Made by a program: the position numbers and the translations under genes
Part shown: positions 9,367 through 42,000 of the stretch, piece after piece
Numbering within the stretch: position 1 is the first letter of the stretch
Layout of the letters: each line of letters begins with the position of its first letter
The notes under the pieces: generated by a model
Database searches by the model: none
Seen by the model: the letters and a program-made list of their open reading frames with translations, nothing else
Told to the model about the DNA's origin: nothing
NCBI RefSeq assembly: GCF_030013905.1
Contig: NZ_CP124862.1
Coordinates: forward strand, 620,001 to 684,000
Origin: Petroclostridium sp. X23
GTDB taxonomy: Bacteria > Bacillota > Clostridia > SK-Y3
DNA length: 64,000 nucleotides
Direction: 5' to 3'

Positions 9367-9404
9367 TTTTTCTTATATCTCCTTCGTACTTTCTACTTTT
9401 GAGT

Positions 9405-9482: not shown

Positions 9483-9498
9483 TAAACATAATGGGAAG
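9483..9498 (+). repeat. 16-bp repeat shared with 50135-50150
   Basis: TAAACATAATGGGAAG occurs here and, identical, about 40 kb away at 50135-50150. The first 11 bases also occur at 6443-6453. Here it is part of an imperfect palindrome (CCCATCAT..ATAATGGG, 9477-9495) and lies in opposite orientation to the motif at 9405-9419. It may be an end of a vanished insertion sequence. Confidence 0.45.
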
Positions 9499-9538
9499 TT
9501 TATCCATCAAAGTAAATACTATTAAAAATGCTATGATA

Positions 9539-10930: not shown

Positions 10931-11050
10931 GTACATCCTCCACTCTTGGGCTTTCTACTAATTATTTTACATTCAAACTATAGAAAACTGCTCAGTTATA
11001 TTCCTCAATCATCTATTTAACTGCATATGAAAATAAAATACTTTTCCAAT

Positions 11051-16322: not shown

Positions 16323-16391
16323 CTTCATCACCTCTGAAAATGAAAAAACACCGGAGTTTTCCGATGCTTTTCCATGAATTTTGGGGTACAA

Positions 16392-22800: not shown

Positions 22801-24089
22801 AGCACATGGTCAATTTCTTCTTGAGAAATAGAAAAAGCAGAGGTTTTTTCTTCCTCCGCTTTTTCTATGACTTCTATTTGCTCTTCAAAGGTTGGAAACA
22901 GGTTTAGCTGTAAATCAGCTCCGCCAGCACCGTTTCCTCCGCTTGATGTCTCAGGCTGTTCATATGTCCCGTCCAGCCCATCGGGTCGTCTGCCTTGTTC
23001 GGTGCTGGACTGTTCTCCAAGAGTTTCGCCGTAATTCTCTCGATGCTTTCCCTCGCCGTCCAGTCGGTCTCTGCCAGATGGCTGTTCAGCTTGCCCGACA
23101 GCATCAGGCTGGCGTACATCCCTTTCCTGTGGTTTTTCAGATATGTTTTGCGCAACATCCCATATTTGCCGATGTGTGTTTCTTCCTCCGTTAGCGTCAG
23201 GTCGGGAATCAGATAATCGCCCTTGGGCGTGTAGGTCAGTTCCATATTCACCATTCCTTTCAGAATCTATATTTTGTTTTACATTTTTATTGTGGCGAAC
23301 CTCTTGATTTTTTGCAAAGGTGTGGCTTTGATTTTTCTCTGTAATTTGCATCTCCTTGACCGTTGCGCCGATTTCCCTTAAAACCATTTCGGAAATATCG
23401 CTGGTGGCGGCTCCCAGTTGGGAAACGGTATCCAGAGTATTGAAGTTAAAAACACCCTGAAGCTCTGCCGAACTCAAATACTCGTCGGCATTGTAACCGC
23501 AGCGTACTAAGAGCATATAGGCCACGGAGCTTTTCAGCACTTCCTTGAAGATAACTTCCACGTTCAGGTCGTCCAGCTCCTCTAGAAAGCTGTTCTCCCG
23601 GCAATCTGCCAAGTCGGTAAGATAATCCGGAAAATTGTCCTCCACGGCATTACGGGCGGCAGAGATTAAGACACTTGCCATATCCTGTTTTTCCTCCGGC
23701 TCACCAAAGGCATTCTCCAGCGTTTCCGTCACAGCCTCTGCATATCTGTCCTGCATTGCCCAAAGGACAATGGGGCGGTCATAGCGGCTGTTGGTATCCG
23801 ACACATCGAATACATGGCGCAGGCTCAAACGGCTCCCGCTGTCATCGATGAGAGCAATGCCCTTTGCGCCCCGGTTTACCCAACGGCCCAGCTTACGGTT
23901 CCATAGCTCAATGGGCGCGCAAGCAGTTGCATCGGGACGCTGTGTATAAATTAAAACCTGATCCTGGAACGGGTATTTGTAGTTCCATGACGCCGTTTTC
24001 AAAAAGGAAGTCCAGTTGACAAAATTTTTTGTGATAGTGCGGGCAGTCCTCTCCGAAAGCTCTGTAATCAGTTGCAGTTTCGTTGCCAA
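16815..24089 (-). CDS. Giant N6-adenine methylase-like / SNF2-type helicase of conjugative elements
   Basis: 2424 residues, TTG start at 24089 after AAGGAGGG. Residues 1-110 (FVNWTSFLKTASWNYKYPFQDQVLIY) resemble the ArdC-type ssDNA-binding domain. A charged, probably disordered stretch runs about 250-390. A methyltransferase core has LEPACGTGNFFG (about 946) and AVGNVPFGSYG (about 1005), where NVPF replaces the usual NPPY. A superfamily 2 helicase follows: LLAHCVGAGKTYEMAA (about 1615), LFVDEADFYKN (about 1778), motif VI RSGRIVRQGN (about 2115). A helical tail ends the protein. The fusion is a hallmark of Firmicute ICEs; proposed roles are protection and remodelling of transferred DNA. Both catalytic parts look intact apart from the methylase variant. 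Confidence 0.88.
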   Translation of the reverse strand: MATKLQLITELSERTARTITKNFVNWTSFLKTASWNYKYPFQDQVLIYTQRPDATACAPIELWNRKLGRWVNRGAKGIALIDDSGSRLSLRHVFDVSDTNSRYDRPIVLWAMQDRYAEAVTETLENAFGEPEEKQDMASVLISAARNAVEDNFPDYLTDLADCRENSFLEELDDLNVEVIFKEVLKSSVAYMLLVRCGYNADEYLSSAELQGVFNFNTLDTVSQLGAATSDISEMVLREIGATVKEMQITEKNQSHTFAKNQEVRHNKNVKQNIDSERNGEYGTDLHAQGRLSDSRPDANGGRNTHRQIWDVAQNISEKPQERDVRQPDAVGQAEQPSGRDRLDGEGKHRENYGETLGEQSSTEQGRRPDGLDGTYEQPETSSGGNGAGGADLQLNLFPTFEEQIEVIEKAEEEKTSAFSISQEEIDHVLCKGTGFQDGKYRVYLHYREQHTAKETIDFLKREYGTGGGTHFFMNGTHGNTWHDGTGITISKSGSFISNPDIKLSWNQVAKRLGELIVADRYLNNKEKKYLPVYEQQVEEQSQQLAEKAYAHEILNRELASSEPKPPSGEDTRYIYSLGDTVYLGTGEYEIISYDDSFVQLRDINFPLFSKELSRSDFDRMLGENPLNDHLISDEKETLATQAEAPAEQAAEKEQAPSPSALYKTYLPQIINRIRTDEIYPYLRDKDTDPDSAERELDNAIHRIMLSMREEHPAFYQAYTSLPKFKEWFHEDIFQRIYQDYLTEKRDSVTLHADDPDAPEWVRATGDVIITTEGDTFTIDSEVKDEKTYVEFDLELLDDQSEDTEKQPAEIPKTQGIPKQPRVNFHITDDDLGVGGAKAKYGRNVAAIRLLNQLEEQNRLATPEEQEILCRYVGWGGLPQVFDEQNSQWAKEYTELKELLTDEEYTSARASTLNAHYTSPMVIKAMYDCLANMGFETGNILEPACGTGNFFGLVPESMKNSKLYGVELDGITGRIAKQLYQNASIAVQGFEETNLPDSFFDLAVGNVPFGSYGVADKKYDKHKFYIHDYFYAKTLDKVRPGGIIAFITSKGTLDKQNPEVRKYIAQRAELLGAVRLPNNAFLANAGTEVTTDIIFLQKRDRVIDIEPDWVHISTTGDGIPINQYFADNPDMVLGTMAYDERMYGNQNETACVPHEDTDLSELLREALENIHAEITEYELDELSDDEDTSIPADPDVRNFSFCLVDGEIYYQENSRMNRVETFVTAQGRIKGMIALRDCVRELIEYQTEDYSDEIIREQQQKLNNLYDAFTAKYGILNSRGNNMAFSDDSSYCLLCSLEILDEDGKLERKADMFTKRTIRQHTSVTHVDTATEALAISIGEKACVDIGFMQTLTGLSEEQILKDLEGIVFRNPEKADNEGNPRYETEDEYLSGNVREKLKTARRFAEMYPDLYGVNVKALEAVQPKDLDASEIDVRLGATWLPPDVIKDFMFELLETPYMYRRYIGVLYSAYTANWNVKGKNDDRSDNIKANVTYGTKRINAYKIIEETLNLKDVRIFDTIIEDGNEKRILNKKETAIAQQKQEAIKEAFQSWIWKDPQRRERLTRIYNDRFNSIRPREYDGSHIRFTGMNPEITLRKHQVDAVAHGLYGGNTLLAHCVGAGKTYEMAAIAMESKHLGLCQKSLFVVPNHLTEQWAAEFLQLYPSTNILVATKKDFETKNRKKFCARIATGDYDAVIIGHSQFEKIPISQERQKRQLEEQISEITSGIRELKEEHGERYAIKQLEKTKKTLKLRLDKLNDTSRKDDVVTFEELGVDRLFVDEADFYKNLFLYTKMRNVAGLSQTDAQKSSDLFAKCRYLDELTEGRGTIFATGTPISNSITEMYTMQRYLQYEALRRNGLQHFDCWASTFGETVTAIELAPEGTGYRAKTRFARFYNLPELMNMFKEVADIKTADMLNLPVPKANYHNVAVKPSEFQQGMVAELAERAERVRNRVVEPYEDNMLKITNDGRKLALDQRLANSMLPDHERSKVNACVDNTFRLWHENRDQRLTQLVFCDLSTPKNDGNFNIYGDVRQKLTDRGVPADEIAFIHDANTETRKKELFAKVRKGQVRILLGSTFKMGAGTNVQDRLIALHDLDCPWRPRDLEQRSGRIVRQGNKNDEVHIFRYVTENTFDAYLYQILENKQRFISQIMTGKSHVRSAEDIDETALSYAEVKALATGNPYIKEKMDLDIQVSKLKLLKANHLSQRYALEDRLLKHYPQQIKSTEERIAGYEKDLSMFEQHSSPEPAGDSTEDSKFAGMTVKDIHYTEKAKAGEAILEACKLMTSPEPQELGSYMGFPLLFSFDGFNKQYQITLRGALSHTVTLGTDIHGNITRINNVLAEIPKKLEYCKEQLKTLRQQMETAKKEIDIPFEKEQELQTKSARLAELNILLNMDKQENEIMDGEPDEDMDVPERKAVGYER

Positions 24090-24102: not shown

Positions 24103-24402
24103 TTACCGTTCCTGTCCGTGCTTTTTCTTCTGGAACTTTGGTTCCTTTTTTTCGGTTGCCTCCTTTTCCTGCTGAAGACTTCTTAGATAATGGACTTCAT
24201 CCAGCACCCGATTGCATAAGTCCTCAAGAGCGGTCAGGCGGTCACTAAGATAATGCCCCCAAAAGTAGTCCTTTTCGCCCTTCCTGCATTTCCAGGTGAC
24301 GAACGGCGCAATCTCTGTATCCCTTTGTCCGATGACAAATTCCGAATTGCCTACGGTCAGCCGGTCGGTGATAATGTAACCGGCATTAATGTCCTTTTCC
24401 AT
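24103..24402 (-). CDS. Small ICE protein, unknown function
   Basis: 99 residues; TTAGGAGG precedes the ATG at 24402. Starts MEKDINAGYIITDRLTVG; contains FVIGQRDTEIAPFVTWKC, then a helix and a Lys/Glu-rich tail. The pattern suggests a small beta domain that recurs in ICE proteins beside the giant helicase, but I cannot name a family. It ends 14 bases before the helicase-methylase start, so they are co-translated. Confidence 0.65.
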   Translation of the reverse strand: MEKDINAGYIITDRLTVGNSEFVIGQRDTEIAPFVTWKCRKGEKDYFWGHYLSDRLTALEDLCNRVLDEVHYLRSLQQEKEATEKKEPKFQKKKHGQER

Positions 24403-24413
24403 AATCAGACCTC

Positions 24414-25022
24414 CTAACGCACCTGCTCATGTTTTTTCTGCTTTGCCTGCATTTCAATCTGTATTTGTTTCAGCCGTTCCTTTGCCCAATAGGGCAGATG
24501 CTCCGGCTTGATGATGCCCAAAATATCCTCCCGATTCCAGCGGGATTCCTTGCCGGAATATATGTTGACGGTATAGACCGCCCGTCCTCTGGAATTGGCA
24601 TGAGCGCCAAAGCCACCCGTAGCCAGCACAAGCTGCTTGTCGGCGGTACGGTATTCGGGGCGCAGACGTTCCGGGCGAATCACTACCACTTTATTTTCAA
24701 TGCTCACTCCATAATCGTTTGGGTTGCATTGTTCAGAAATGAAAGGCTGTAAGGGAACAGTAATTTTATCCCGTTCCTCTTTGACCGCCTCAAGCTGTGC
24801 CTGTATCCGGTCGGTAAACTCGGTCATCATTTCCAAATAGTCCGTACTTGCTTTGGCTTCAAAGAACTGGTCAACGCCCAACGGGTTATCCCAAGTACAG
24901 TTACAAACCATATACGGATAATCGGCATTTGTGTTATCCTCACAAAAAAGAACTTCCTTATCTCCAATATGGATGGTGTGTTTTACCTCAAAGGTATCCA
25001 CCATGCGCTTTTCTTCATTCAT
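24414..25022 (-). CDS. ICE protein of unknown function (DUF3849-like context)
   Basis: 202 residues from MNEEKRMVDTFEVKHTIHIG; GGAGTGAG precedes the ATG at 25022. A further upstream in-frame extension overlaps the 29-residue gene at 25100-25189 and is unlikely. The N-terminal half mixes beta strands and a helix; the C-terminal half (NVYSGKESRWNREDILGIIKPEHLPYWAKERLK-type sequence) resembles a segment common in clostridial ICE proteins. It lies 11 bases ahead of the 99-residue gene. No enzymatic motif seen. Confidence 0.65.
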   Translation of the reverse strand: MNEEKRMVDTFEVKHTIHIGDKEVLFCEDNTNADYPYMVCNCTWDNPLGVDQFFEAKASTDYLEMMTEFTDRIQAQLEAVKEERDKITVPLQPFISEQCNPNDYGVSIENKVVVIRPERLRPEYRTADKQLVLATGGFGAHANSRGRAVYTVNIYSGKESRWNREDILGIIKPEHLPYWAKERLKQIQIEMQAKQKKHEQVR

Positions 25023-25099
25023 CTTTTTCTCACTCCAATCGAACAGGCGGACAGAGAAGGGATGGCGTTTGTGTTTTCGCCCCTTATGCTGCCCTGCCG

Positions 25100-25189
25100 T
25101 TATTTCTTTTTTCTCTTGATATTCAAATACACCGTACCACCGACAATAACAAGGCATAGCACAATGGCCAGTATCGTTTTCAGTTCCAC
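25100..25189 (-). CDS. 29-residue single-span membrane peptide
   Basis: A GTG at 25189 follows a very strong AGGAGGTGA site. The peptide is MELKTILAIVLCLVIVGG then TVYLNIKRKKK: one hydrophobic helix with a basic cytoplasmic end. It sits just after the prepilin peptidase gene in the Tad operon. The strong ribosome site and clean topology argue for a real gene; function unknown. Confidence 0.6.
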   Translation of the reverse strand: MELKTILAIVLCLVIVGGTVYLNIKRKKK

Positions 25190-25211
25190 AAAATCACCTC
25201 CTGCTGTTCAA

Positions 25212-25628
25212 TCAGTAAATCCGTCCATATATAAAAAGAGCACCAGCGTATATGAAAAAACCAATGCACAAGAAGGTGGCCAATGGTATATTCTTTTGCT
25301 TTGTAGCTTTCGCATATATGCAGGCGGGAAGCACGGCAAAAAAGAGGATGACCGCAAGAGAGTACAGTCCAAAGCAAAAGCCCATTGCAGCCGTAAGCTT
25401 GATATCACCCCCGCCCACGCCGCCGTATTTCATCGCAAGGAGCAGCAGGCAAGCTCCCGGCAAGAGAAATCCCGCAATCCGTTCATACAGGGCGGGAACT
25501 GGTGATAAAAAAACAGATGCAATCCCGGTCAGTAAAATAGCAATCCATGTCCAATCAGGGATAATCCGTTTTCTATAGTCCGTAATAGCCGCCCACACAA
25601 GGGGAACAGCACAAAATATTATCATCAT
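25212..25628 (-). CDS. Prepilin peptidase (A24 family, TadV/CpaA-like)
   Basis: 138 residues, about five membrane spans. The two catalytic aspartates of type IV prepilin peptidases are seen in AAITDYRKRIIPDW (Asp17) and YGGVGGGDIKL (Asp75, the GxGD motif). The N-methylation domain of PilD is missing, as in TadV/CpaA. It would cut the prepilins encoded at 28741-30273 after Gly. The start overlaps the stop of the large upstream gene (TGATG). Membrane-bound. Confidence 0.9.
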   Translation of the reverse strand: MMIIFCAVPLVWAAITDYRKRIIPDWTWIAILLTGIASVFLSPVPALYERIAGFLLPGACLLLLAMKYGGVGGGDIKLTAAMGFCFGLYSLAVILFFAVLPACIYAKATKQKNIPLATFLCIGFFIYAGALFIYGRIY

Positions 25629-28600
25629 CAGTCCCCCGTCGTGACGTCATCCTCGTACATGCTGTCTACCACATAGATTTTTAGCTCCCCTCCGGTAATC
25701 CATTTGGATAATGTTCCTCCAGGGGTGTGCACATCGGTGACAAGGAGCTGCAAGATATAGTCCTTATCATCGGGAAACCAAATCGGAACATATTGTTTGC
25801 GGTATTTGAAAGGAGATGCGGGATTCTCCCGGAAAGTAAATTGACCACCTTCCTTAATTAAGGGGATAGCGGTTTCGTAGCGGTATTCCGGTAAATAAAC
25901 CTCTGCCGTCTGTGGAGCAGTAATCAGCTCCGGCCTGTCATAGTCAGTATTCACAGTTGCCGTAACACGGATGGAATACCCGTATCCAGATTTTAAGAAG
26001 CCTTTGGCTTTGGTATCATAATCCAGTACGGCGCTGACTTTTAACTCAACATAGAATTGCTTCCATATAAACTGGCCCCCTTCATACCTTTGTTCCCACC
26101 ATGTCACCTTTGGTTGCTCACTTCTTTGCGGTGGACCAGGGAGCGTCCGGCTTTCTTCCGGTTCTTCATAGGTGACATTTTGAATGATCGCCTCTTGGGT
26201 ATATATGTTGTTGTCGGAGTTGCTTTCATTGCCTAAAGAATGTTCGGGGTTGATGATCGCAATCAGGGTACTGTCCTTATCGGCCTGTACGTTTGGAGTG
26301 TCCCATCGCAGAGATACCACATTCCAGGTGTCCTTTTCCATGACAACAGCATCTATTCGTTTTGAAAAGGACAGTTCGGGGATTTGAAACAACACCGTAA
26401 CGTTTTGTCCGGGCGTAAAGTCGAGACTGCCACGGTTGCCGACCTTGATGGTACTGATAACCGTCTGGTTTTCCTTATATTTATCCGGCGTGATTCTCTG
26501 TACATCCAAATCATAAGGGCGCTCCAGCACCATGATTTCCGATGAGACCTGATTGTTGCCCGGATTGCTGTCACTATATCCCGCAGGCGGTGATACTTGT
26601 GCCGAAAGCCGGATGGGTATGCCTTTTTCTCCTGCCGTACTCGTAATAAGGAAGAATTTCTTTTCATAGGGTTCAAAATTATCCATAGGCGGTACGGCGG
26701 AAATCGTGCTGCCGTTTATGGTAACATTCAGGTTCACATCCGACAGTGTCTTGTCCGTGGAATTGGCAAAATACACTGTGAAGCTGTATTCTTCCCTCTC
26801 ATAAACCGTTGGCGGTGATGAGAGGTTTACCCATACGTCACACAGGCTTTTCACCGGAATATCCGGTTCATCCGGTGGGTTGTCTGGGTTATCTGGATTA
26901 TCCGATTCATCCGGCGGATTATCAGGATTGTCCGGTGGATTATCAGGTTTATCTGGATTATCCGAAGGCTTTTTCACTACAGTAATTTTTGAAACGGCTG
27001 TATTGTTGACCGGGCTTTCGTCCCGGAAACCGTCGGGCGCTCTGATATTTGCCCATAAAATGTATACCTCGCCTGCTTTTCCTGCCGTACTCTCAATGGT
27101 AAAGGACTTGGTTTCGCCCGGTTTAAAGTTGCCGGTTGATGGAACTTGCGTTAAAAGGCTCTCATTGTTCTTTGCCTGCAACGGCACATTATCCAGTTGC
27201 TTGTCGGATTGGTTGGTAAAGCTCATTGTAAAGCCGTAGCTTTCATGCTCATATATCGTGGGCGGCGCAAGAATACTTGCGGAAAGGTCGCAAGCCTTTG
27301 GTTTTTCCGGCGGGTTATCCGGTGGATTAACAGGGTCATCCGGTGTATCATCCGGCGTGTCAGGAATATCAGGCGTCGGCTCCGGTTCGAGGTCAACGAT
27401 TTTTATTACCGCCGCGGCCGTGTTGTTGGCAAGGTTACCATCAATAAATCCCTCCGGTACACCGATGTTAGCCCACAAATAAATTTCATCGGCAGCGGTG
27501 CCCGCTGTGCGTTTCACTTCATAGGCTTTACTTGTATTTGGAGAAAAGTCCTGCATAACTGGAATCTCCTCAATAACGGCTCCATCCACCGTACCTTTCA
27601 TTGGGACATCATAGGCCCAGCTGCTTCCATTGTTCATGTAAATCACGGTAAAGGAATAATCCGCTCCACGATTCACCATGGCAGGAGCACGTATAACTAC
27701 TGACAGATCGTTTCCGTCACAAGCCTTAAACTTAAAGTAAAAGTCAGCAGCAGGGATTTGATAGTGAATTTTCTGGGTGATTTCCGTCTGTGTTTTGCTT
27801 TTCCCATCTACGTACTCTTTGGTTTCCGGGGTGTAATCCCATTCAAGCCCTTTGTACACAAAGTTGCGGGAGAGCTTAATGTCATCCTTATGAAATGTGA
27901 CAGAGGTAGTTTGATAGGGATAGAGAATCTCCGGCAGTCCTTTGTCCTGAGCTGTGAGCTTCCCGTATATCTCCCGCTTGCTCTCATCACACCAAGTCGC
28001 TTCCACATCAATTCTGACCGGAGCCTGATAGGACAATGCCGTGTCACGCATAGTTTCAAAGGCGATAAGTGCTTTTTTTGTCCAGCCGTAACGGGTGGTC
28101 AATTCTTCAAAATCGGTTTTGGTGTCATAGGTCCCATACAGTTTGCCGGACTTATAGCCGTAGATTTCCACTACCAGGCTGCCCTTCAGGGTATAGGTTC
28201 CTCCGTCATATCTTCCGATCCACCCGGCAATGCGCTCCTGTTCATAGTCGGCAACGGTGTTGGCATTTATAAGGTCGATGCGCTGCGGTTCAGGGAATGA
28301 CTCTAACAGTGTATTGTCTTCATAAGTATCTGTAATCAACATACCTACAGTACGGTAGCGGGTATCGTAGATAGCCTTTACTTGAAACACCACGTTGGCC
28401 GTGACTGTCAGAACAGCTCCCTGATCGGTTTTTGCGGTGATGGTATAGGGACTGCAGCTCTCCTTGCTTTCTACAGTCAGAGTATATTCCGGCGATATCG
28501 ACCGCCTCTTGCCGCCATATTCCAGTTCTATATCTGTCAGCGTTCCGGTTAATGCTGTGATGCTTATGGGAATTTCAGCCGGAAAATGCTCCACAGCCAC

Positions 28601-28741
28601 CACGCCGCTTTCATTGTGCAGACTGTCTATAGGTGAGGTGACAAGGATTTCAATGTCACTCGCTGCAGCAAATGCCTTGACGGAAAAAAGCAGACAGCAC
28701 AAAAAAACAACGGGTATGGTTAAAATAAGCTTTCGTATCAT
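25628..28741 (-). CDS. Secreted multi-CARDB-domain surface protein of the Tad locus
   Basis: 1037 residues with a signal peptide (LILTIPVVFLCCLLFSVKAFA, cut after ..AFAA). The middle holds three or four repeats of about 110 residues with AxxxVYExExYxFTVxFxN and NNTAxxxI patterns, characteristic of CARDB-type beta-sandwich adhesion modules, at roughly 350-450, 485-600, 645-750 and 770-870. They are joined by Pro/Asp/Asn-rich linkers (about 453-482 and 591-628). No LPxTG motif or transmembrane tail is seen, so the protein is secreted or held by the pilus. Coupled to the TadE-like gene upstream by TAATG. Likely a pilus-associated adhesin for mate or surface contact; inferred. Confidence 0.75.
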   Translation of the reverse strand: MIRKLILTIPVVFLCCLLFSVKAFAAASDIEILVTSPIDSLHNESGVVAVEHFPAEIPISITALTGTLTDIELEYGGKRRSISPEYTLTVESKESCSPYTITAKTDQGAVLTVTANVVFQVKAIYDTRYRTVGMLITDTYEDNTLLESFPEPQRIDLINANTVADYEQERIAGWIGRYDGGTYTLKGSLVVEIYGYKSGKLYGTYDTKTDFEELTTRYGWTKKALIAFETMRDTALSYQAPVRIDVEATWCDESKREIYGKLTAQDKGLPEILYPYQTTSVTFHKDDIKLSRNFVYKGLEWDYTPETKEYVDGKSKTQTEITQKIHYQIPAADFYFKFKACDGNDLSVVIRAPAMVNRGADYSFTVIYMNNGSSWAYDVPMKGTVDGAVIEEIPVMQDFSPNTSKAYEVKRTAGTAADEIYLWANIGVPEGFIDGNLANNTAAAVIKIVDLEPEPTPDIPDTPDDTPDDPVNPPDNPPEKPKACDLSASILAPPTIYEHESYGFTMSFTNQSDKQLDNVPLQAKNNESLLTQVPSTGNFKPGETKSFTIESTAGKAGEVYILWANIRAPDGFRDESPVNNTAVSKITVVKKPSDNPDKPDNPPDNPDNPPDESDNPDNPDNPPDEPDIPVKSLCDVWVNLSSPPTVYEREEYSFTVYFANSTDKTLSDVNLNVTINGSTISAVPPMDNFEPYEKKFFLITSTAGEKGIPIRLSAQVSPPAGYSDSNPGNNQVSSEIMVLERPYDLDVQRITPDKYKENQTVISTIKVGNRGSLDFTPGQNVTVLFQIPELSFSKRIDAVVMEKDTWNVVSLRWDTPNVQADKDSTLIAIINPEHSLGNESNSDNNIYTQEAIIQNVTYEEPEESRTLPGPPQRSEQPKVTWWEQRYEGGQFIWKQFYVELKVSAVLDYDTKAKGFLKSGYGYSIRVTATVNTDYDRPELITAPQTAEVYLPEYRYETAIPLIKEGGQFTFRENPASPFKYRKQYVPIWFPDDKDYILQLLVTDVHTPGGTLSKWITGGELKIYVVDSMYEDDVTTGD
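26860..26975 (-). repeat. Low-complexity Pro/Asp/Asn linker repeat
   Basis: Imperfect tandem units of about 9-12 bases encode repeats of DNPDNPP / DNPDKPD type within the CARDB protein. A shorter version lies at 27297-27385. Such tracts can change length by slippage and would alter spacing between adhesin modules. Confidence 0.75.
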
Positions 28742-29223
28742 TAGAAACCTCCTTCCTCTATACGATTGTTGACACTGGAGATATAAAAGGGAAGCCGAAC
28801 CTCGCCGGTCAAGAAATTGAAAATACTGCGGGTTCTTATCACCCCGTCCAGTGTCAGCCGTGGCGGGCCTTCGGTAGCGTTAACACTTTGGATTTCCAGT
28901 TCGTATACCCACTCGTTACCGGCATATTTATTAAATCCCGTGTCCAGTTCCATGCTTTCGTGCAGGTATTCGTACAGTCTTTCTTCCGCAGCCTCCGTAT
29001 TCAGCAAGGCGCAGCCGTCCCTGCGGTATTCGTCGCGCATCCCGTATTCCACAGAAGTGTTTACCCCGCGCTGTAGCACGTATTCCACCTGCTGATAAAG
29101 GCTTTCCATACGGAAATACTCAATCAGGATGGCCGAGAGGGTCAGAATGAAAAAAACAAGAATGATGATTAATATAAAGGTGTCGCCCTTGCGGTTTTGT
29201 AAAATACGTTTAATATGTCCCAC
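28741..29223 (-). CDS. TadE-like minor pilin
   Basis: 160 residues, GTG start at 29223 after GGAGGCG. The N-terminus LQNRKGDTFILIIILVFFIL has the class III prepilin form: basic leader, Gly then Asp, and a hydrophobic helix; a TadV-type enzyme would cut after the Gly. The rest is a soluble domain. TadE-like pseudopilins help start or stabilise the pilus. Overlaps the CARDB gene start by one base. Confidence 0.75.
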   Translation of the reverse strand: MGHIKRILQNRKGDTFILIIILVFFILTLSAILIEYFRMESLYQQVEYVLQRGVNTSVEYGMRDEYRRDGCALLNTEAAEERLYEYLHESMELDTGFNKYAGNEWVYELEIQSVNATEGPPRLTLDGVIRTRSIFNFLTGEVRLPFYISSVNNRIEEGGF

Positions 29224-29248
29224 AGCTTTCGCCTCCTTCCCGGTGTAC

Positions 29249-29731
29249 TCAATCTATGAGTTTCCAGTATTTTTCCGACATTCCGGTAATGCTTACCCGC
29301 ATTGGTATATTGATTTCAACCAGCGGAGCAAAGGAAGGGGTGAATATGGTAAAGGGATAGCTGTAGGTCATAGTAATTGTGAAAGTGTCTCTCAACTGGA
29401 TTTTCTGATCCTCGCAATACTCAACATCCTCAACAGTCATTTCCGGCGATAATCCGGTCTGCTGCTTGAGCCGGTAAAACACATCATAAGCCCGGTCGGA
29501 AACCTGTCCCTCCAGCTCTACAACCCGGACAACACGACGGCAGACATGGTTTAGATTAAGGTAAGTGGTAAAAACGCTGAGAAAGGATATCACTGTGACC
29601 ATGAGCGTAATCACTACCAACGTTTTAATCATCAGATCAAAATAGCTGCTTCCTTTTCTGTTTGAAAGAAGTTTTTGAAAAAGCATTGGGGGAGATAATC
29701 TCCCCCGTATGCTCCGATGCCTGCTGTTCAT
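29249..29731 (-). CDS. DUF4320 family pilin-like protein
   Basis: 160 residues from MNSRHRSIRGRLSPPM; GGGAGGTG lies 8 bases before the ATG at 29731. An upstream ATG at 29779 overlaps the previous stop (TGATG) and could give 16 more residues. LLSNRKGSSYFDLMIKTLVVITLMV is a class III-like leader with a Gly/Ser junction and one membrane span. The family accompanies Tad genes in Firmicute elements. The soluble part has a YCEDQKIQLRDTFTITMTY strand pattern. Confidence 0.75.
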   Translation of the reverse strand: MNSRHRSIRGRLSPPMLFQKLLSNRKGSSYFDLMIKTLVVITLMVTVISFLSVFTTYLNLNHVCRRVVRVVELEGQVSDRAYDVFYRLKQQTGLSPEMTVEDVEYCEDQKIQLRDTFTITMTYSYPFTIFTPSFAPLVEINIPMRVSITGMSEKYWKLID

Positions 29732-29778
29732 CTTCTCTGCACCTCCCGCGTTTGCGGATATGCCTTTTGCGGGCTTCA

Positions 29779-29988
29779 TCAGCTTAGCAGTCCGGTAATC
29801 TTGGTTACGATGCTATTCCAAATTGTAGTGATGGAATCCTGATACAGCGTCATGAACACCGCGCCCACTACAACAACAACCAACACTACGATAAGCCAGC
29901 CGGTCATTTGGTCACCATTCCTGCTTTGCAGAAGTTCTCTAACCTTTACAGATGTCATGCTTATTTTGTTTTTCAATATAGTCATCAT
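29779..29988 (-). CDS. Flp-type pilin 1
   Basis: 69 residues; CGGAGG precedes the ATG at 29988. The core SRNGDQMTGWLIVVLVVVVVGA is a leader, Gly-Asp junction and long hydrophobic helix, followed by a short amphipathic end IWNSIVTKITGLLS. Nearly identical to the next gene in its last 45 residues, so the two arose by tandem duplication. The usual Flp E-Y pair after the helix start is absent. Major pilin subunit of the Tad pilus. Confidence 0.8.
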   Translation of the reverse strand: MMTILKNKISMTSVKVRELLQSRNGDQMTGWLIVVLVVVVVGAVFMTLYQDSITTIWNSIVTKITGLLS

Positions 29989-30075
29989 AATAAATACCTC
30001 CGTTTGTTTTTAAATTTTGATTTCAAAGGAAAAGGGAAGCAATACTTCCCCTGAATCAGTACCTTATGCCTGCCC

Positions 30076-30273
30076 TTAGCTCAAAAGCCCGGTAATTTTG
30101 TCTACAATACTGTTCCAGATGGTGGTAATCGACCCTTGATACAAGGTCATGAACACTGCGCCCACCACAACAACAATCAAGACAACAATAAGCCAGCCGG
30201 TCATCTGGTCGCCGCTCGGATTTGCCAATGCGTTTCTCGCTCTCAAAAGAACGTTTGACATGTGTTTCCTCAT
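30076..30273 (-). CDS. Flp-type pilin 2
   Basis: 65 residues from MRKHMSNVLLRARNALANPSG; GGAGG lies 8 bases before the ATG at 30273. Another ATG at 30327 also has a perfect site (AGGAGG) and would add 18 residues; both may work. The mature part GDQMTGWLIVVLIVVVVGAV matches pilin 1 but the leaders differ. First pilin gene after tadC, so probably the more abundant one. Confidence 0.78.
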   Translation of the reverse strand: MRKHMSNVLLRARNALANPSGDQMTGWLIVVLIVVVVGAVFMTLYQGSITTIWNSIVDKITGLLS

Positions 30274-30382
30274 GGAATTTGTCCTCCTTTCCTCAGTGAT
30301 TGAGTTTGCAATTCTGATGTTTTTCATGGGTAATACCTCCTGAAAATGTATTTGAAAAAGGGAATTGCCCCGTTTTCACAGA

Positions 30383-31285
30383 TTAAAAAAGGCCCCCCAT
30401 TGAGTGAATCAAGTGGGAGCCAATCACATACAGCAAACTGGCAAGAGTTACTGCCACAAGAGGGATAGATGCAATTTTAACCCTGCGGGGCAGCTTATCC
30501 AGTTTCTTTTTCAATGCTTCTTTCGCCTTGATGTCCATATCCCTGGCAAGATACGCCAAGGCTTCTCCTTGGTGTTCACCACGGTACAGCCCGATGAGGG
30601 CATTTACCAGAAAGGAAACATCGGTAATTCCAAGCCGTTCATTGAAGTTTCGCAGGGCGTTTTCAATGTCTGTGGCCTTCATTTCCACGACCAAAATCGC
30701 CACATCATCCCGGAAGGCATCACTTGCCACCTTCAGGTAATCCTCGAATATCTGGATTAAATCGACCTGTACAACAGGTTTTCTATCATCCTTGATATCA
30801 TCTAGCTTATACAAGATGGAGCGGACAAAGCCCGGCAATTCCATTTCGATGCGGCGCTTCTTTTCTTTCATTTGGTCCTTGAGATCGGTCATGAAATGAA
30901 AGTATATTACTACAGCAAAAATAAGAACAATGGGTGCAAGATTTGCCATACCAATAACAATAAGCAGCGGCATAAGAATCAGGGTAAACGAAGCGCATAA
31001 AACAGCCCTGGCATAATACTCCTTGGGAGTCAGTTCCGATCCTCCGCGCCGCAGCATGGAAGCCATCCGTACTTCTTTTATAGGATCAAGGGGTATGAGA
31101 CGGGAAACCGGTTTTGCCAGAGGCATTATAAAACGGTTTAGCAGACGTTTACCCGGCTCTTCCTTTTCGGACTGCAGGCTCTTGATGTTCTTTTTCATAC
31201 TCAACTTCGGAATTTTGAGAAGCTGCCTGCATAGCAAAAAGCCTGCCGCAGTCAGCAGGACAAAAATGATAACTTGATAAAACAA
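30383..31285 (-). CDS. TadC-like inner-membrane platform protein
   Basis: 300 residues, TTG start at 31285 after AGGAGG. Hydrophobic segments at about 3-20, 105-140 and 275-298 flank a soluble helical region (ELPGFVRSILYKLDDI, AFRDDVAILVVEMKATDIENAL) of the type II secretion F family. With TadB it forms the platform on which the TadA ATPase works. It ends about 110 bases before pilin 2. Confidence 0.8.
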   Translation of the reverse strand: MFYQVIIFVLLTAAGFLLCRQLLKIPKLSMKKNIKSLQSEKEEPGKRLLNRFIMPLAKPVSRLIPLDPIKEVRMASMLRRGGSELTPKEYYARAVLCASFTLILMPLLIVIGMANLAPIVLIFAVVIYFHFMTDLKDQMKEKKRRIEMELPGFVRSILYKLDDIKDDRKPVVQVDLIQIFEDYLKVASDAFRDDVAILVVEMKATDIENALRNFNERLGITDVSFLVNALIGLYRGEHQGEALAYLARDMDIKAKEALKKKLDKLPRRVKIASIPLVAVTLASLLYVIGSHLIHSMGGLF

Positions 31286-31296
31286 CGAAAAACCTC

Positions 31297-32211
31297 CTAT
31301 CTATTTGAGGGCTTTGTCGCCTTCATAACATAAAAAGCAGTGGCAAGGGCAATCACCATCATAAGTATAATCAGCAGCTTACCAACGGCAGTTTTCGTCA
31401 GAAGGTAAAACCACTCGGCATTGGCAAACCGCATCATGGGGATAATGGAAAACATCAGGCCCGCCGTCATCAGATAATCCCTCCATACCCGCACCATCAT
31501 GCCGTCACTTTCAACCTGCATGCTTTTTGCATCGTTCATGGCCTTAATGATTGGGAATAAGGCAAATTTCAATCGCCGGTCATGGTGACAAAGAATCAAC
31601 ATCTTTACCCATTCATTAAAGTACCTGTTTTTAATCTTTTCCGACAGACGATACAGGCCATGCTCCACATTGGGATTAACTAACCGCAGCTCTGTGACAA
31701 ACTCGTCAAAAGGCGTGGGAATTCTTAAGTTTGCAGGAATGTACCTGTTCTTTTCCTCCACAAAGGTTTCCATCGCCTTGATAATATCGTCACATCCTGC
31801 GTAGGTGTTGGTGATAACGGACATGGTGTTTTCCAGCCCTTCGATTTCTTCCCGAGCAGCCGCAGAACTTTTCACCGTCAGATAAAAATACGGGGCGGGA
31901 AGCACACAGGCCGCCATAACCGCCGCCAGCCCGGTGCTGTCGAACAGCAGTATCCCTGCTGTAAAGCCTGCTGCCGAAGCCGCAAGCAACAAGATAAGAA
32001 ATTTCTTTCGTGTACAGCGTGTCTGCCTAAGGAGCGTTCCAAAGTGGATGGCAATACGTTCCGTTATTTTCAGTTTTGTGCCGGTTAAAATCAAACGTCG
32101 CTTTTTCAACGGATTTTGCTCCACCTCAAAGGGATTCAGCCCCAGCAGGAGAAACAGGGCAAGGCTGATAAAAATAAACACAGTGATAAGTGATAGATGA
32201 ATCGGGTTCAT
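31297..32211 (-). CDS. TadB-like inner-membrane platform protein
   Basis: 304 residues; GGAAGGAGG precedes the ATG at 32211. Membrane segments at about 8-25, 70-115 and 255-300 with a cytoplasmic T2SF-type helical domain between. ATGA overlap with the end of tadA. Pairs with TadC. Confidence 0.8.
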   Translation of the reverse strand: MNPIHLSLITVFIFISLALFLLLGLNPFEVEQNPLKKRRLILTGTKLKITERIAIHFGTLLRQTRCTRKKFLILLLAASAAGFTAGILLFDSTGLAAVMAACVLPAPYFYLTVKSSAAAREEIEGLENTMSVITNTYAGCDDIIKAMETFVEEKNRYIPANLRIPTPFDEFVTELRLVNPNVEHGLYRLSEKIKNRYFNEWVKMLILCHHDRRLKFALFPIIKAMNDAKSMQVESDGMMVRVWRDYLMTAGLMFSIIPMMRFANAEWFYLLTKTAVGKLLIILMMVIALATAFYVMKATKPSNR

Positions 32212-33596
32212 TCCGCACCTCCTTCCGAAAAGCGGCGGATCTCTTTTTGAGGTACACCTCCGACCAAAAGCCTTTCGGCAAGAGCCGGAGAAATATTCCC
32301 CATGCGCCGGTGACTGCCTACCGCCTTGGTAATCCTGCCTTCCTTATCCCTTTCGTAGTGGTCAACCGCATATTTATACAAGGTGCTGCCCATAACTTCA
32401 CCATTTTGTACTCCGGTGGCCTCAAAGATTTCCATGTATTTACGAGAATGGTCAGGTAGTTGCATCTTAAAAAGCATAATCGGAAAGGCTTCCACGATGT
32501 TTTTGAGAAGCCGTTCCTCCGACAGAGAGGTCCCAGCCTCCAGGCACATGGTCAAGATGCGGTCATAGGCTGTTCGCGCGCTATTGGCATGGAGAGTGCT
32601 GACGATGGTGTGCCCCGTCCGTCCGGCCTCCTGCACGGTGAGGGCCTCCTTCCCACGCATTTCGGCAGGTACAAGGATTTCCGGGTGCAGCCGCAGGGAG
32701 AGCTTAAGTAAATCCAGCATGGTAACAGGGTTCGGCTCCTCCTTGGTAAGAAGGTGGATAACGTCATTTAGCATCACACCGTTTTTATCATATTGCGCCA
32801 AAGACAGTTCGCGGGTGTCCTCAATGGTCACAATGCGCTTTTCATGGGGAATACAGCTTAGAATATAGCCCATATCGGCAGTTTTGCCGCTTCCGGTAGC
32901 TCCGGCAATGGCCACCGATACACCATTGTTTACGCATAGGGTGAGAAAGTCCAATTCCTCTGCCGTAGCTGTTTCCCATTCGACAAGATTTTGCCGTGTG
33001 ATGTAGGATGGCTTTTGCTTTCGGACGGAAGCAATGGCTCCGGCATCCGGGTCAACACAAGGGGAGATAGCTCCCGACATGCGTATACCTCTTGCAATGA
33101 AGCTGTCCCCGATGGGCTTGCTGCCGTCCAGAATTACATTTCCGAACCGGCTCATCTTTCTAACGATGTTGGCGCAGGCTTCCGCATTGCTGAAGGTTTC
33201 ATTCAGACGGACTTTCCTGTCCTTATACAGCACCCAAGCACCGCCGGAGCCGTTGACGTTTATTTCCTCCGTATCATTATCCTGCAAATAGGGAGATAAC
33301 AGTCCCATACCGGCCATATCAAAGTACGCTGCGTCCACCAGCTCGGAAATGTTTCGAAGGTCCTTAGCTACCAGCTGCTCTTGGTTCAGGTAGCGCATGA
33401 TGAGGTCTTTGAGCTTTCCTTCGGCCTCCTGCGAATAAAGCACCTGTGCCAGCTCTGCCGAATGGTTTTTGGCGATAAGCCGCTGCAGCTTGTCGAGGAT
33501 TTCCCCATAGTCCTGGGCTTTAGTGATTTGACCGCTGTCAGAGCGACGTTTATTGGCACGGTAAATCAAATCGTTTACTGAAAATCTGCTGTTCAT
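32208..33596 (-). CDS. TadA/CpaF-type secretion ATPase
   Basis: 462 residues; GGGGGTGAG precedes the ATG at 33596. Walker A VAIAGATGSGKTADMGYIL (about 232), Asp box RIVTIEDTRELSL, Walker B-like ILVPAEMRGKEALTVQEAGRTGHTIVSTLHANSA, all standard for CpaF/TadA hexameric ATPases. It drives Flp pilus assembly and, in some cases, retraction. Four-base ATGA overlaps with both tadZ and tadB show a tightly coupled operon. Confidence 0.92.
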   Translation of the reverse strand: MNSRFSVNDLIYRANKRRSDSGQITKAQDYGEILDKLQRLIAKNHSAELAQVLYSQEAEGKLKDLIMRYLNQEQLVAKDLRNISELVDAAYFDMAGMGLLSPYLQDNDTEEINVNGSGGAWVLYKDRKVRLNETFSNAEACANIVRKMSRFGNVILDGSKPIGDSFIARGIRMSGAISPCVDPDAGAIASVRKQKPSYITRQNLVEWETATAEELDFLTLCVNNGVSVAIAGATGSGKTADMGYILSCIPHEKRIVTIEDTRELSLAQYDKNGVMLNDVIHLLTKEEPNPVTMLDLLKLSLRLHPEILVPAEMRGKEALTVQEAGRTGHTIVSTLHANSARTAYDRILTMCLEAGTSLSEERLLKNIVEAFPIMLFKMQLPDHSRKYMEIFEATGVQNGEVMGSTLYKYAVDHYERDKEGRITKAVGSHRRMGNISPALAERLLVGGVPQKEIRRFSEGGAE

Positions 33597-34327
33597 GGCT
33601 TCTCACCCCCGCAGATATCATCAACAATTTTCTCCAACATCTTGCCGTAACGCCTGCAAGGTTTATCATTGTAAAAATATATGGGTGTTCCGGCATTCTC
33701 CAATTCTCCGGCCCGTTTGACATAGGGCAGCTCATAGGCAAAGGGCAGTTCCGTCATACTGCGGTAGGTCTTATCGTCAAACTCTCCATTCGGAGCCAGC
33801 AGAATATGAGTTTGCTTTTCTCCGATGTGCAGCTCCTGTACAAAATCCGAAATGCCCTTATGCCACATCTGCGCCGCTATGGACGGCCGATGGAGGGTAA
33901 ATATTCTTTCAGCCAGCCATAGGCCCACGCTGGATACCGGATTGTTTATCTCCGCAGCTCCGTCCACAAGGAGTATGTCGAAGACAAGGGATGCGGTATT
34001 AATCATTTGCTCCACTTCCTCAATAGTCACTGTATCGCAGAGCAGCCCGGTATAGTGCGTGGGCGCGGATAGAAAGAACAGGTTTTTACTTTCTTCACAA
34101 TTCACAAATTTTTCTCCGATATTGGGGTTATCATCGCTCAATGCTTCATATAACCCCTTTTCCGGTGGTACGTCTTGACCGAAAAAGATTTGCAGATCTC
34201 CATATGTCAAATTGGAGGATATGAGGCCCACCAGGCAGTCCCGTTTGGAAAGGGCGCAAGCTAGATTGACTGCAAAGGTGGTTTTACCACTGTTGTTGCC
34301 GCCCCAGACGGTAATAATTCTACTCAT
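33593..34327 (-). CDS. TadZ/CpaE-like ParA-family ATPase
   Basis: 244 residues from MSRIITVWGGNNSGKTTFAV; GAGGTG precedes the ATG at 34327. The deviant Walker A (GGNNSGKTT) and DILLVDGAAEINNP identify a ParA/MinD-type ATPase of the CpaE/TadZ group, which positions the Tad machine at the pole. No N-terminal receiver domain, so it is the short form. Overlaps cpaB by 8 bases and tadA by 4. Confidence 0.82.
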   Translation of the reverse strand: MSRIITVWGGNNSGKTTFAVNLACALSKRDCLVGLISSNLTYGDLQIFFGQDVPPEKGLYEALSDDNPNIGEKFVNCEESKNLFFLSAPTHYTGLLCDTVTIEEVEQMINTASLVFDILLVDGAAEINNPVSSVGLWLAERIFTLHRPSIAAQMWHKGISDFVQELHIGEKQTHILLAPNGEFDDKTYRSMTELPFAYELPYVKRAGELENAGTPIYFYNDKPCRRYGKMLEKIVDDICGGEKP

Positions 34328-35027
34328 GGCCCACACCTCTTTTTTCAAAGATTAAGTGCATTTTTCCAGTATATTCAGCCTGGATAAGTTTCTCTGCCTG
34401 TACCTCAGTAACAATAAGGGTGATGGCCTTGGGAACAGGATCACCGGTGGATGATTGACTTTCAGACTGTTGTTCCCGAACCTCTGCGGTGTCCTGTGTT
34501 CGGGCATTCTCTACGCTGTATACCTCCAGTCCGTGCAATTCCGGGTAGAGTATGACTTGCGGGGAGGTATCCTGACCACCGGATGCTCCCTCTAAAAACA
34601 CCGCCACTGTTACCGCGTCACCGCTTTGCAGATGGGAGGAAAGCCCCGCGGCGGCACTTGCTACGCTGATGGTGACAAGACGTTGCTCATTTTCTGCTAT
34701 ACGGTCTAGCTTTTCATCAGCAACAAAATCCCCAAGCTTTTGAGGAAACAAGTAGTCACCTTTGGCTATGCTGGTCTTTGCTACCTTCCCTATAATCAGT
34801 GCTTTGTCGTTAATCACATCTTCCGGCAGACCAAATTTACCGACCTCCACCTGGGTAAGATATCTGTCCTCCATCCTGGTACCCGCCGGAATGTCCTCCG
34901 ATGCCCTCAGCACCATGACGGTTGCATCCTTGTTCGCATAAAACCTTGGCAAAAGCACAAAGGAAACGGCTGCCGCAACAATGATGCAGAGGGCGCTCAG
35001 AAATATTCGATTTTTTAGTATCTTCAA
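34320..35027 (-). CDS. CpaB/RcpC-like SAF-domain protein
   Basis: 235 residues, TTG start at 35027 with AGGAGG 11 bases upstream. One N-terminal membrane anchor (IFLSALCIIVAAAVSFVLL) then a SAF domain (SEDIPAGTRMEDRYLTQVEV, IAKGDYLFPQKLG). CpaB/RcpC proteins are periplasmic in Gram-negatives; here it would be extracellular and attached to the membrane, helping to guide the pilus through the wall. First clear gene of the Tad operon. Confidence 0.8.
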   Translation of the reverse strand: MKILKNRIFLSALCIIVAAAVSFVLLPRFYANKDATVMVLRASEDIPAGTRMEDRYLTQVEVGKFGLPEDVINDKALIIGKVAKTSIAKGDYLFPQKLGDFVADEKLDRIAENEQRLVTISVASAAAGLSSHLQSGDAVTVAVFLEGASGGQDTSPQVILYPELHGLEVYSVENARTQDTAEVREQQSESQSSTGDPVPKAITLIVTEVQAEKLIQAEYTGKMHLIFEKRGVGHE

Positions 35028-35092
35028 GCTGTTCTATACCTCCTTCCGTTATGGTTAATAAAAAACTCCCCGTATTCTCACAATAAGCACTA

Positions 35093-35251
35093 TTACGGGC
35101 CGAAAAAGAAAGTGGAATCGCGTTCCTGCTTTTCGCTCTTTTCCCTTGCAATAGGCTCATTGCTTTCCCGCCTTGCCGTTTTGTGGATAATAGGGATTCT
35201 TCGGATTAGAGTTCGGAAGGTTTTAGGCTTCTTTTTTGCTGTCTGCTTCAT
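35093..35251 (-). CDS. 52-residue basic protein at the head of the Tad operon
   Basis: Starts MKQTAKKKPKTFRTLIRRI, with AAAGGAG before the ATG at 35251; a longer frame would read through the hairpin and G-tract upstream and is unlikely. Strongly basic N-terminal half, mixed tail ending FFFGP. No family recognised; it may bind nucleic acid. It lies 65 bases before cpaB. Confidence 0.5.
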   Translation of the reverse strand: MKQTAKKKPKTFRTLIRRIPIIHKTARRESNEPIAREKSEKQERDSTFFFGP

Positions 35252-35679: not shown

Positions 35680-36612
35680 TTATCGTTCCTGCTCCCGCTG
35701 CCGCTTCTTGTACCAGCTCTCAAGCAATTGAACGATCAAATCCTCCTTTTGTTTCTCAGTAAAGCTTTTTGGGAAAAAGCGGTCGATGCGTTCACGCCGG
35801 ACACTTAATTTTTCCTTTTGATTGGGCTTTTTTTCGGTGAGAATGGAAAAAATGACATCCATATTCAACCGCCCGTCCTGGCTTAACTTTTTCATGCGCT
35901 GAGCTTGAGAGAGAGAAGGCGTACAATCCTCCGACTGCATAGTATCGTGTAGGTTCTGCTGTTCCTTTTCGGTTAAGTAGGAAAGCTCCACAGCTGGACG
36001 GAAAGCAATCTGATTATTGTCTACCATTTCCAAAATAGAAGGATTAAGTTCTGTAAGTCGGATAAACCTGTGTACTTGCCTCCCACTTTCGCCTGTAGTT
36101 TCGCCCAATAAATCTGCACTTATTGACTTCTCGACCAATGGTCGCGAAGTTAAATCTGTCCTCTGTCCCTGCCGTTTCATGGCTTCCAGTTTCATTTTGT
36201 AGGCAAAAGCTTTTTCACTTGGCAAGATGCTTTCTCTTTGCAGATTACTGTCAACCATGATAATTGTGGCTTGATCGTTATCCAATTCACGGACAATACA
36301 AGGCATGATTTCCTTCCCCGCAAGCTCGCTCGCTTTTTTTCGCCGATGTCCGGCAACCATTTCATAACCGCCTTCCGGTTTCGGTCGTACAAGCCCCGGA
36401 ACTAAAACGCCATACTGCTTAACGCTATCCGCCATTTCCAGCATAGCTTCATCCGCTTTCACCTTAAAAGGATGATTAGGAAAATCGCTTATTTCCGACA
36501 AGGGAATATCCAGTACCTTTTCCCGCTGACTATCTGCACGACTTTCTTCGGTGGAAAACAGATCATCTACTGATGTCAGTTTTATGCTGTTTCGCACGTC
36601 TTTTTTCGCCAA
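35680..36612 (-). CDS. parB: ParB-family partition protein
   Basis: 310 residues, TTG start at 36612 with AAAGGAGG nine bases upstream. The ParB N-terminal nuclease-like/CTPase domain is clear: DIPLSEISDFPNHPFKV, YEMVAGHRRKKASELAG (GHRR motif), ATIIMVDSNLQRE, then a helix-turn-helix (DLLGETTGESGRQVHRFIRL). The C-terminus is basic (EKQKEDLIVQLLESWYKKR). Overlaps parA by 50 bases. In ICEs such pairs help keep the excised circle. Confidence 0.9.
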   Translation of the reverse strand: MAKKDVRNSIKLTSVDDLFSTEESRADSQREKVLDIPLSEISDFPNHPFKVKADEAMLEMADSVKQYGVLVPGLVRPKPEGGYEMVAGHRRKKASELAGKEIMPCIVRELDNDQATIIMVDSNLQRESILPSEKAFAYKMKLEAMKRQGQRTDLTSRPLVEKSISADLLGETTGESGRQVHRFIRLTELNPSILEMVDNNQIAFRPAVELSYLTEKEQQNLHDTMQSEDCTPSLSQAQRMKKLSQDGRLNMDVIFSILTEKKPNQKEKLSVRRERIDRFFPKSFTEKQKEDLIVQLLESWYKKRQREQER

Positions 36613-37387
36613 TATCCTGCACCTCCTTTGTAAAGGCTTGATAGGCTTTAGCAGCTATTCCATGCGGGTCAAACGCATAAATGCTTTTTCCCTGCGCGCT
36701 TGTTTCAGCCGCCCGAATGGACAGGGGAATTTCCGTTTGAAAAACTCTCAGCTTGTCGCCATAGTCCCGCCGCAGTATAAAGGAAATATCCTTTGCAAAA
36801 TTTGTGCGGTTATCTACCATTGTTAGCAGCACACCGTCAATGGTCAGCTTAGGATTGATCTGCCTTCTCACACGAGCAATGGTCTGCAATAGCTGTGTCA
36901 TTCCTTTAGCGGGCAGATAATGGGCCTGAACGGGAATAATAACGCTATCCGCAGCGGCAAGGGCATTAATGGTCATCATGCCAAGAGAGGGCATACAGTC
37001 GATCAGCACATAATCATATTTGTCTTTGACCGTGTTGATATATGTTCGCAGTACCGTTTCCCGGCTCATAGTGTTAACCAGCGAAACCTCAATAGCAGAC
37101 AGTTCAATATTACCCGGCATCAAGTCAACGCCTTCCACATGGTGCAAAATTCCTTCGCTGGCTTCATACTGTTCCTCCATCATGGCCTTGGTGAGTATGG
37201 TCGCCAGTGAAACGGGAATATTGTCCGGCTCTTGATATCCCAATGAATCTGTCAGATTCCCTTGTGCGTCCGCGTCCACCAGCAGCACCTTTTTACCCTG
37301 TACCGCAAGGCCGATACCAAGATTAACCGTGGTCGTTGTTTTCCCCGTGCCGCCTTTCTGATTAGCAAGGGCGATTACTTTTGACAC
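36563..37387 (-). CDS. parA: ParA/Soj-family partition ATPase
   Basis: 274 residues, GTG start at 37387 after GGAGG. MSKVIALANQKGGTGKTTT contains the deviant Walker A (KGGTGKTT); DYVLIDCMPSLGMM is the Walker B region. Standard length for Soj-type ParA without an extra DNA-binding domain. It moves ParB-bound DNA along the nucleoid. First gene of the par/Tad block, just after the large terminator at 37409-37451. Confidence 0.93.
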   Translation of the reverse strand: MSKVIALANQKGGTGKTTTTVNLGIGLAVQGKKVLLVDADAQGNLTDSLGYQEPDNIPVSLATILTKAMMEEQYEASEGILHHVEGVDLMPGNIELSAIEVSLVNTMSRETVLRTYINTVKDKYDYVLIDCMPSLGMMTINALAAADSVIIPVQAHYLPAKGMTQLLQTIARVRRQINPKLTIDGVLLTMVDNRTNFAKDISFILRRDYGDKLRVFQTEIPLSIRAAETSAQGKSIYAFDPHGIAAKAYQAFTKEVQDIGEKRRAKQHKTDISR

Positions 37388-38330: not shown

Positions 38331-38343
38331 ATTCAAACCACCT

Positions 38344-41983: not shown

Positions 41984-42000
41984 ACTAACCTCCCTTTCAG

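Follow-up and report, generated by a model that had tools for sequence, protein, structure and literature searches.

We analyzed a 64,000-nucleotide stretch of DNA (the window; G000:C1:620001-684000) from the 5.51-Mb single-contig genome of Petroclostridium sp. X23, which carries a gene set for a Tad (type IVc) pilus of the monoderm type on the minus strand, between positions 25212 and 35027. Read from 35027 to 25212, the order is cpaB, tadZ, tadA, tadB, tadC, two genes for Flp-like pilins, a DUF4320 gene, and genes for a TadF-like pilin, a CARDB protein, and a prepilin peptidase. Every Tad gene named in a preliminary description of this DNA was recovered, and its placement of the locus inside a conjugative element also held, with a relaxase, a coupling protein (VirD4), VirB4, and the type IV secretion system (T4SS) membrane parts PrgI, TrbL, and TrbC-type pilin all found around the Tad genes. 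That description had called the Tad set full, which is accurate for a cell with one membrane; as expected for such a cell, the genes of the locus include none for a secretin, RcpB, or TadD.

At the head of the locus, CpaB/RcpC (34320 to 35027) matched TIGR03177 with 71.9 bits, over the cut-off, as well as PF16976 (RcpC) and SAF, and the ParA-like ATPase TadZ (33593 to 34348) was recognized by weak ParA/CbiA matches together with its position and homologues. The TadA/CpaF motor ATPase (462 amino acids; 32208 to 33596) matched PF00437 (1e-26). An NCBIfam search with the single TadA protein ranked VirB11 first; when the family profile was compared with solved structures, CpaF aligned along almost the full length with 239 bits, compared with 109 bits for VirB11. 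Neither TadB (31297 to 32211) nor TadC (30383 to 31285), the two platform proteins, had a Pfam match below an E value of 0.01; therefore, profiles were built from their relatives and compared by profile-profile alignment (hhalign), which paired TadB with chromosomal TadB (98.3%, E value of 1.6e-14) and TadC with chromosomal TadC (99.0%, E value of 3.8e-18), each better than with the other paralogue. The prepilin peptidase (TadV-like, 138 amino acids; 25212 to 25628; PF01478, 4.2e-16) shows the catalytic Asp motifs DYR...IPDW and GGGDIKL in its translation.

The two Flp-like pilins (pilin 1, 83 amino acids, 30076 to 30327; pilin 2, 69 amino acids, 29779 to 29988) share the signature G|DQMTGWLIVVLVVVVVGAVF, which is near-invariant among relatives; both are short and read G|DQMTGW followed by a hydrophobic stretch, with Asp at +1 and no acidic residue at +5. 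The DUF4320 protein (29249 to 29779; PF14208, 2e-36) is a TadE-like minor pilin with the N terminus NRKG|SSYFDLMIKTL and Asp at +5, and the TadF-like minor pilin (160 amino acids; 28741 to 29223) was assigned by its prepilin-like N terminus, NRKG|DTFILIIILVFFILT, and by synteny with homologues in loci of the same layout (layout A, described below). More generally, DUF4320 proteins and short pilins bear class III-like signals, G|DQMTGWLIVVLVVVVVG in window-type elements and RG|EGFVDTAIKILMAVVIG in other elements; in class-B elements (layout B), DUF4320 reads RG|EGYIDVAVLVL, and the pilins have Asp at +5. Glu was present at +5 in 13 of 18 pilin-like open reading frames (ORFs) at chromosomal control tad loci. 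Since some chromosomal pilin-like ORFs also lack it, the missing Glu5 was dropped as a mark unique to mobile loci.

The secreted CARDB protein (1,037 amino acids; 25628 to 28741; PF07705) is a putative pilus-associated adhesin or stalk. Its residues 754 to 1016 form a C-terminal domain that is common to the large secreted proteins of layouts A and B, whose front parts differ (hhalign, 99.0%, E value of 5e-18), which indicates that a large secreted protein is a standing part of the Tad module. In a full-length AlphaFold model, three CARDB domains and the first Ig-like domain were confident and most of the remainder was of low confidence; a moderate-confidence model of the class-B secreted protein gave general Ig/CARDB structure matches only.

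The proposal that all of these genes form one coupled operon stands in part. Genes overlap by 1 to 29 bases at the CpaB-TadZ-TadA-TadB, prepilin peptidase/CARDB/TadF, and DUF4320/Flp2 junctions. The parB and parA genes (35680 to 37387, minus strand; PF02195 and PF13614), which lie upstream of tad in type-A elements and next to CpaB in most type-A loci, are probably on another transcript, judging by a terminator-like hairpin (35652 to 35633) between parB and the tad genes and a hairpin with a T-run (30052 to 30032) between the two flp genes, just downstream of Flp-like pilin 1. The latter hairpin could boost the dose of the first pilin.

The linkage of tad to transfer genes was surveyed with Pfam PF19044 (VirB4-type) as the VirB4 marker and a linkage distance of 40 kb. 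A TadA-family match of some kind was present in 139 of 196 Clostridia genomes, and the closely related form was present in only about 20; DUF4320 was over the cut-off in 21 of these 196 genomes and in 28 of 299 Bacillota genomes in a second sample, so this marker occurs in about a tenth of the sampled Bacillota species. VirB4 lay within range of 14 of the 26 mobile-type tadA loci, whereas none of the 41 chromosomal tadA loci had it in range (Fisher P = 1e-7). Of the 36 DUF4320 loci in the second sample, 20 were linked, where VirB4 numbers and genome sizes predict 1.9; none of 200,000 simulations reached 20. Because of contig ends, these counts are underestimates: two loci (G117 and G034) were scored as unlinked, each on a contig that also carries the methylase or VirD4. 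A count of transfer genes within 10 kb of tadA is likewise too low, since the window layout puts the T4SS about 30 kb off. A survey of this kind had been proposed in the preliminary description, and the association it returned is strong and recurrent.

At least four gene layouts were distinguished, and in some of them, including circular plasmids, tad and transfer genes form one run. Layout A, that of the window, is parA-parB-tad-CARDB-peptidase-small proteins-methylase; it recurs, with TadA 78 to 96% identical, in Geosporobacter, Acetivibrio, Desulfosporosinus, Syntrophomonas, Thermotalea, Lutispora, Pelotomaculum, and others. Layout B reads Dam-(SLH protein)-peptidase-tad-DUF6550-large secreted protein-small pilin-like-TrbL-PrgI-like-VirB4-NlpC/P60-MobL (G119, G173, G124, G129, and L159 to L181), layout C reads VirD4-pilin-like-VirB6-like-PrgI-like-peptidase-tad-...-VirB4 (G129b, G034, G079, and Paenibacillus L162), and layout D reads parB-tad-peptidase-VirB6-like-...-VirB4-VirD4 (G041). 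Circular plasmids with tad were found in Oscillospiraceae MB08-C2-2, Terrisporobacter (pTPHSE1), and Clostridioides difficile (pCd5_2). On pTPHSE1, one strand encodes two DUF6133 proteins, the peptidase, CpaB, TadZ, TadA, TadB, TadC, and DUF4320 and then, further along, VirD4, VirB6-like, VirB4-like, a C40 peptidase, and a MobP2 relaxase; the run on pCd5_2 is prepilin peptidase-cpaB-tadZ-tadA-tadB-tadC-DUF4320-...-VirD4-VirB6-like. The 111-kb T. saccharolyticum plasmid pMU3262 (L205) carries two tandem tad sets. A CpaF/VirB11-family ATPase is also encoded on the Bacilli plasmids pFYY063-72K of Enterococcus casseliflavus (L213), where it is near VirD4, and pFV2 of Listeria (L212); these are possibly reduced pilus sets.

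In a TadA tree, 64 rows from mobile loci fell on one side of a branch with a Shimodaira-Hasegawa-like approximate likelihood ratio test (SH-aLRT) support of 100; on the other side were chromosomal clostridial TadA (including the host's own), Gram-negative TadA, VirB11, TrbB, and some CpaF of Bacilli plasmids. The tree leaves out L137, L140, and L148 (wrong ORFs) along with five more rows that were long or doubtful; finer claims are limited by the quick method and by the long branches of some rows. Genes past parA vary between elements, and the mobile TadA clade keeps with transfer genes across many families. A derivation of TadA as a replacement for VirB11 was discarded, with CpaF much closer in the profile comparison and VirB11 and TrbB across the branch.

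Related tad sets thus lie beside or inside the transfer genes of many clostridial elements and plasmids, suggesting that such elements supply pili of their own that keep mating cells together. We consider it fairly likely that the window locus makes an element-encoded Tad pilus that aids the element's own conjugation and is a Gram-positive counterpart of the IncI thin pilus, a reading supported by the linkage, by the recurrent layouts, and by the plasmids with tad and T4SS in one run. In the proposed mechanism, TadA would power a filament of Flp-like pilins, driving its extension, and probably its retraction, through the TadB/TadC platform, with TadZ and CpaB organizing the pilus base and the TadE/F-like minor pilins and the secreted CARDB-type protein decorating or capping the filament. 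Ellison et al. are said to have found in 2019 that a CpaF-type motor drives both extension and retraction. The filament would grip the recipient and might pull it in, after which the separate VirB4/VirD4/TrbL T4SS would deliver the DNA; the pilus would be useful for transfer, above all in liquid, and would not be the DNA channel. An attachment pilus fits better than a channel because the T4SS looks complete without tad, the ATPase is CpaF-like, and the secreted proteins resemble Ig/CARDB stalks. Beyond the gene content, homology, TadA clade, and linkage to transfer genes that we observed, we infer that pili form, that they bind recipients (the step that would hold donor and recipient together, as the preliminary description had it), and that transfer depends on them. 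As far as genome evidence goes, the earlier observation of a Tad locus is confirmed and its mating interpretation supported, and both widen from a single element to a recurrent clade.

Several points weigh against a mating pilus. VirB4 was absent within 40 kb of 12 of the 26 loci in the first sample; some of these are contig ends or reduced copies, and a few look chromosomal (G010/G043 and possibly G020 and G180). In the window, a distance of some 30 kb separates tad from the T4SS genes, and parAB is its neighbor, an arrangement that would also suit a cargo module. It is uncertain whether a filament forms, because the Flp-like pilins are without the Glu at +5 that most sampled chromosomal Tad pilins have. 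Finally, Tad pili are known host-colonization factors, so that a benefit to the bacterial host cell is possible.

This last point leads to the strongest competing explanation, that the pilus is colonization cargo that, carried on the element as other cargo is, aids the host cell in surface adhesion or biofilm formation and from which conjugation gains at most indirectly. Bifidobacterium breve needs Tad pili for gut colonization (PMC6916266), the window tad genes sit beside parAB and a defense-gene region, and the host already has other TadA-family genes, so that an extra pilus would add surface diversity. For layout A considered by itself, such cargo is still the chief alternative. However, the other layouts and the plasmids put tad inside or directly before the T4SS run, and the distinct mobile TadA clade stays with transfer genes across many families while the genes beyond parA change; on balance, we think colonization cargo unlikely.

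The Tad machine might instead be part of the channel for DNA or protein transfer, as proposed for the type IV pilus of PAPI-1, which is essential under all conditions (PMC12857230); TadA would then work in the place of the missing VirB11. In G129b, G034, G079, and L162, tad is interleaved with VirD4, TrbL/VirB6, PrgI, and VirB4, and TadA and VirB11 belong to one ATPase superfamily. In its broadest form, the idea would make Tad an indispensable component of the mating machinery in a large share of clostridial conjugative elements, with a retractable pilus that pulls cells together and feeds or gates the channel while TadA serves for VirB11; we regard this Tad-T4SS chimera as doubtful and a conduit role as slightly more doubtful still. 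TadA is far more like CpaF than VirB11, a TrbC-type pilin and the usual membrane components of a T4SS are encoded by the window element, and T4SSs of the same types are found without tad in the stretches read (G029, G091, G153, G072, and a second copy in G000).

These tad-free relatives bear on whether the T4SSs need the pilus at all. Among 11 places with a full-length TrbL_5, 8 had a mobile-clade tadA nearby and 3 did not (G029, G091 on a 7-kb contig, and G153). The second copy of the window T4SS and relaxase, at about 896 to 907 kb of G000:C1 (L216 and L217), is degenerate, with two stops, and neither a methylase nor tad genes were present in the stretch read; no tad genes were present in the stretch read of the G072 element, whose relaxase is 80% identical. 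Linked tad occurred at only six or seven of about fifty SNF2-methylase places. Tad is therefore an accessory module, recurrent in some lineages and a regular part of the window's own lineage, since the same T4SS occurs without it in relatives; it is probably not essential to these T4SSs. As a rule for integrative and conjugative elements (ICEs) with this kind of relaxase, linkage to tad failed, being absent from most ICEs that share the methylase.

Although TadA-family ATPases are common in Clostridia, a chance linkage or annotation error, in which an ordinary chromosomal tad locus merely lies near an element, was refuted by the survey (14 of 26 against 0 of 41), and the separate TadA clade and the recurrence of the order parAB-tad-CARDB-methylase in Geosporobacter, Acetivibrio, Desulfosporosinus, Syntrophomonas, Lutispora, and others leave it with almost no probability.

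The genes downstream of tad (minus strand) encode two small conserved proteins between tad and the methylase (99 and 247 amino acids; 24103 to 25157), a giant SNF2 helicase-methylase of 2,424 amino acids (16815 to 24089; PF00176, PF00271, and PF07669), a DUF3991/Toprim primase-like protein (15372 to 16391), and, past a defense-gene region, a MobA/VirD2-type relaxase (3181 to 4698; PF03432, 4.5e-38), a DUF3801 (PcfB-like) conjugation protein (2412 to 3251; PF12687), and the coupling protein. The latter ORF (1 to 1322, continuing about 440 bases past the window edge) we take to be VirD4-like from its sequence and homologues. The 247-amino-acid protein (24414 to 25157) accompanies tad in layouts A and B. 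Outside the window, Pfam placed the TrbC-type pilin, TrbL, PrgI, and VirB4 at G000:C1:614989-619531; the same T4SS stretch including DUF6075 spans G000:C1:612833-619531, with RadC and serine recombinases farther out (the recombinases about 5 to 9 kb past RadC) at the T4SS end of the element. A TrbL_5 fragment at G000:C1:577458-577856 is probably a remnant of a class-B element. Defense-like genes between the relaxase and the primase (5442 to 10936) comprise two Mrr-type endonucleases and AbiH; a QatABCD-like cluster (39138 to 43926; KAP NTPase, QueC-like, and TatD nuclease) lies beside a DUF6602 protein and a SMODS-like nucleotidyltransferase (37596 to 39108). Three consecutive serine-recombinase-like ORFs (57694 to 61243) adjoin an apparent prophage that begins at 61573.

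A 2025 review describes Gram-positive conjugation systems as lacking both conjugative pili and a VirB11-type ATPase and as often depending on surface adhesins (PMC12857230). Conjugation and plasmids go unmentioned in a review of monoderm type IV pili (PMC6916266), as do pili in a survey of gut mobile genetic elements (PMC6907783). In the open-access literature searched, we found no description of a Gram-positive ICE or plasmid with Tad, Flp, or DUF4320, and no paper that names DUF4320. If Tad modules serve mating, the statement that there are no pili would fail for several element families in Clostridia and some Bacilli, in gut and environmental species and on circular plasmids; these elements would then have a way of moving between cells in liquid or in the gut, the pilus might be a receptor for phages, and tadA deletions would offer experimental access to DNA exchange among anaerobes.

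Tn1549-like ICEs presumably resemble the window element in the general kind of relaxase, the SNF2-methylase, VirD4, VirB4, and PrgI; these and other Gram-positive ICEs differ in that most methylase-sharing places have no linked tad. Chromosomal monoderm Tad loci (B. breve and Micrococcus luteus) share the pilin, minor pilins, prepilin peptidase, two platform proteins, ATPase, and TadZ, whereas the window locus adds CpaB and a CARDB-type protein, its TadA clade is separate from chromosomal clostridial TadA, and the element pilins have Asp at +1 or +5 instead of Glu at +5. The nearest published parallel is in Thaumarchaeota, whose ICEs carry TadC, a prepilin peptidase, and pilins; theirs is an archaeal machine, and no relaxase was detected, in contrast to the bacterial Tad with CpaB, TadZ, and two platform proteins described here (PMC6563490). 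PAPI-1 of Pseudomonas aeruginosa likewise carries VirB4 and VirD4 together with a type IV pilus, but its pilus is essential and its other T4SS parts are mostly unrecognized, whereas TrbL, PrgI, and a TrbC-type pilin are present here and some relatives do without tad. IncI plasmids (R64 and TP114), like the window element, are conjugative elements that join a T4SS to a type II secretion system-like pilus machine with pilins and a prepilin peptidase, and their thin pilus is needed in liquid or in the gut and not on a solid support (PMC8213034; PMC12857230). The IncI pilus is of type IVb, belongs to Gram-negative cells, and has a PilV adhesin with a shufflon; the window locus has Tad (type IVc) genes and a CARDB-type protein in a one-membrane host, and neither a PilV-like gene nor a shufflon was noticed among its genes. 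The large pilus-associated protein of the window element could act as PilV does.

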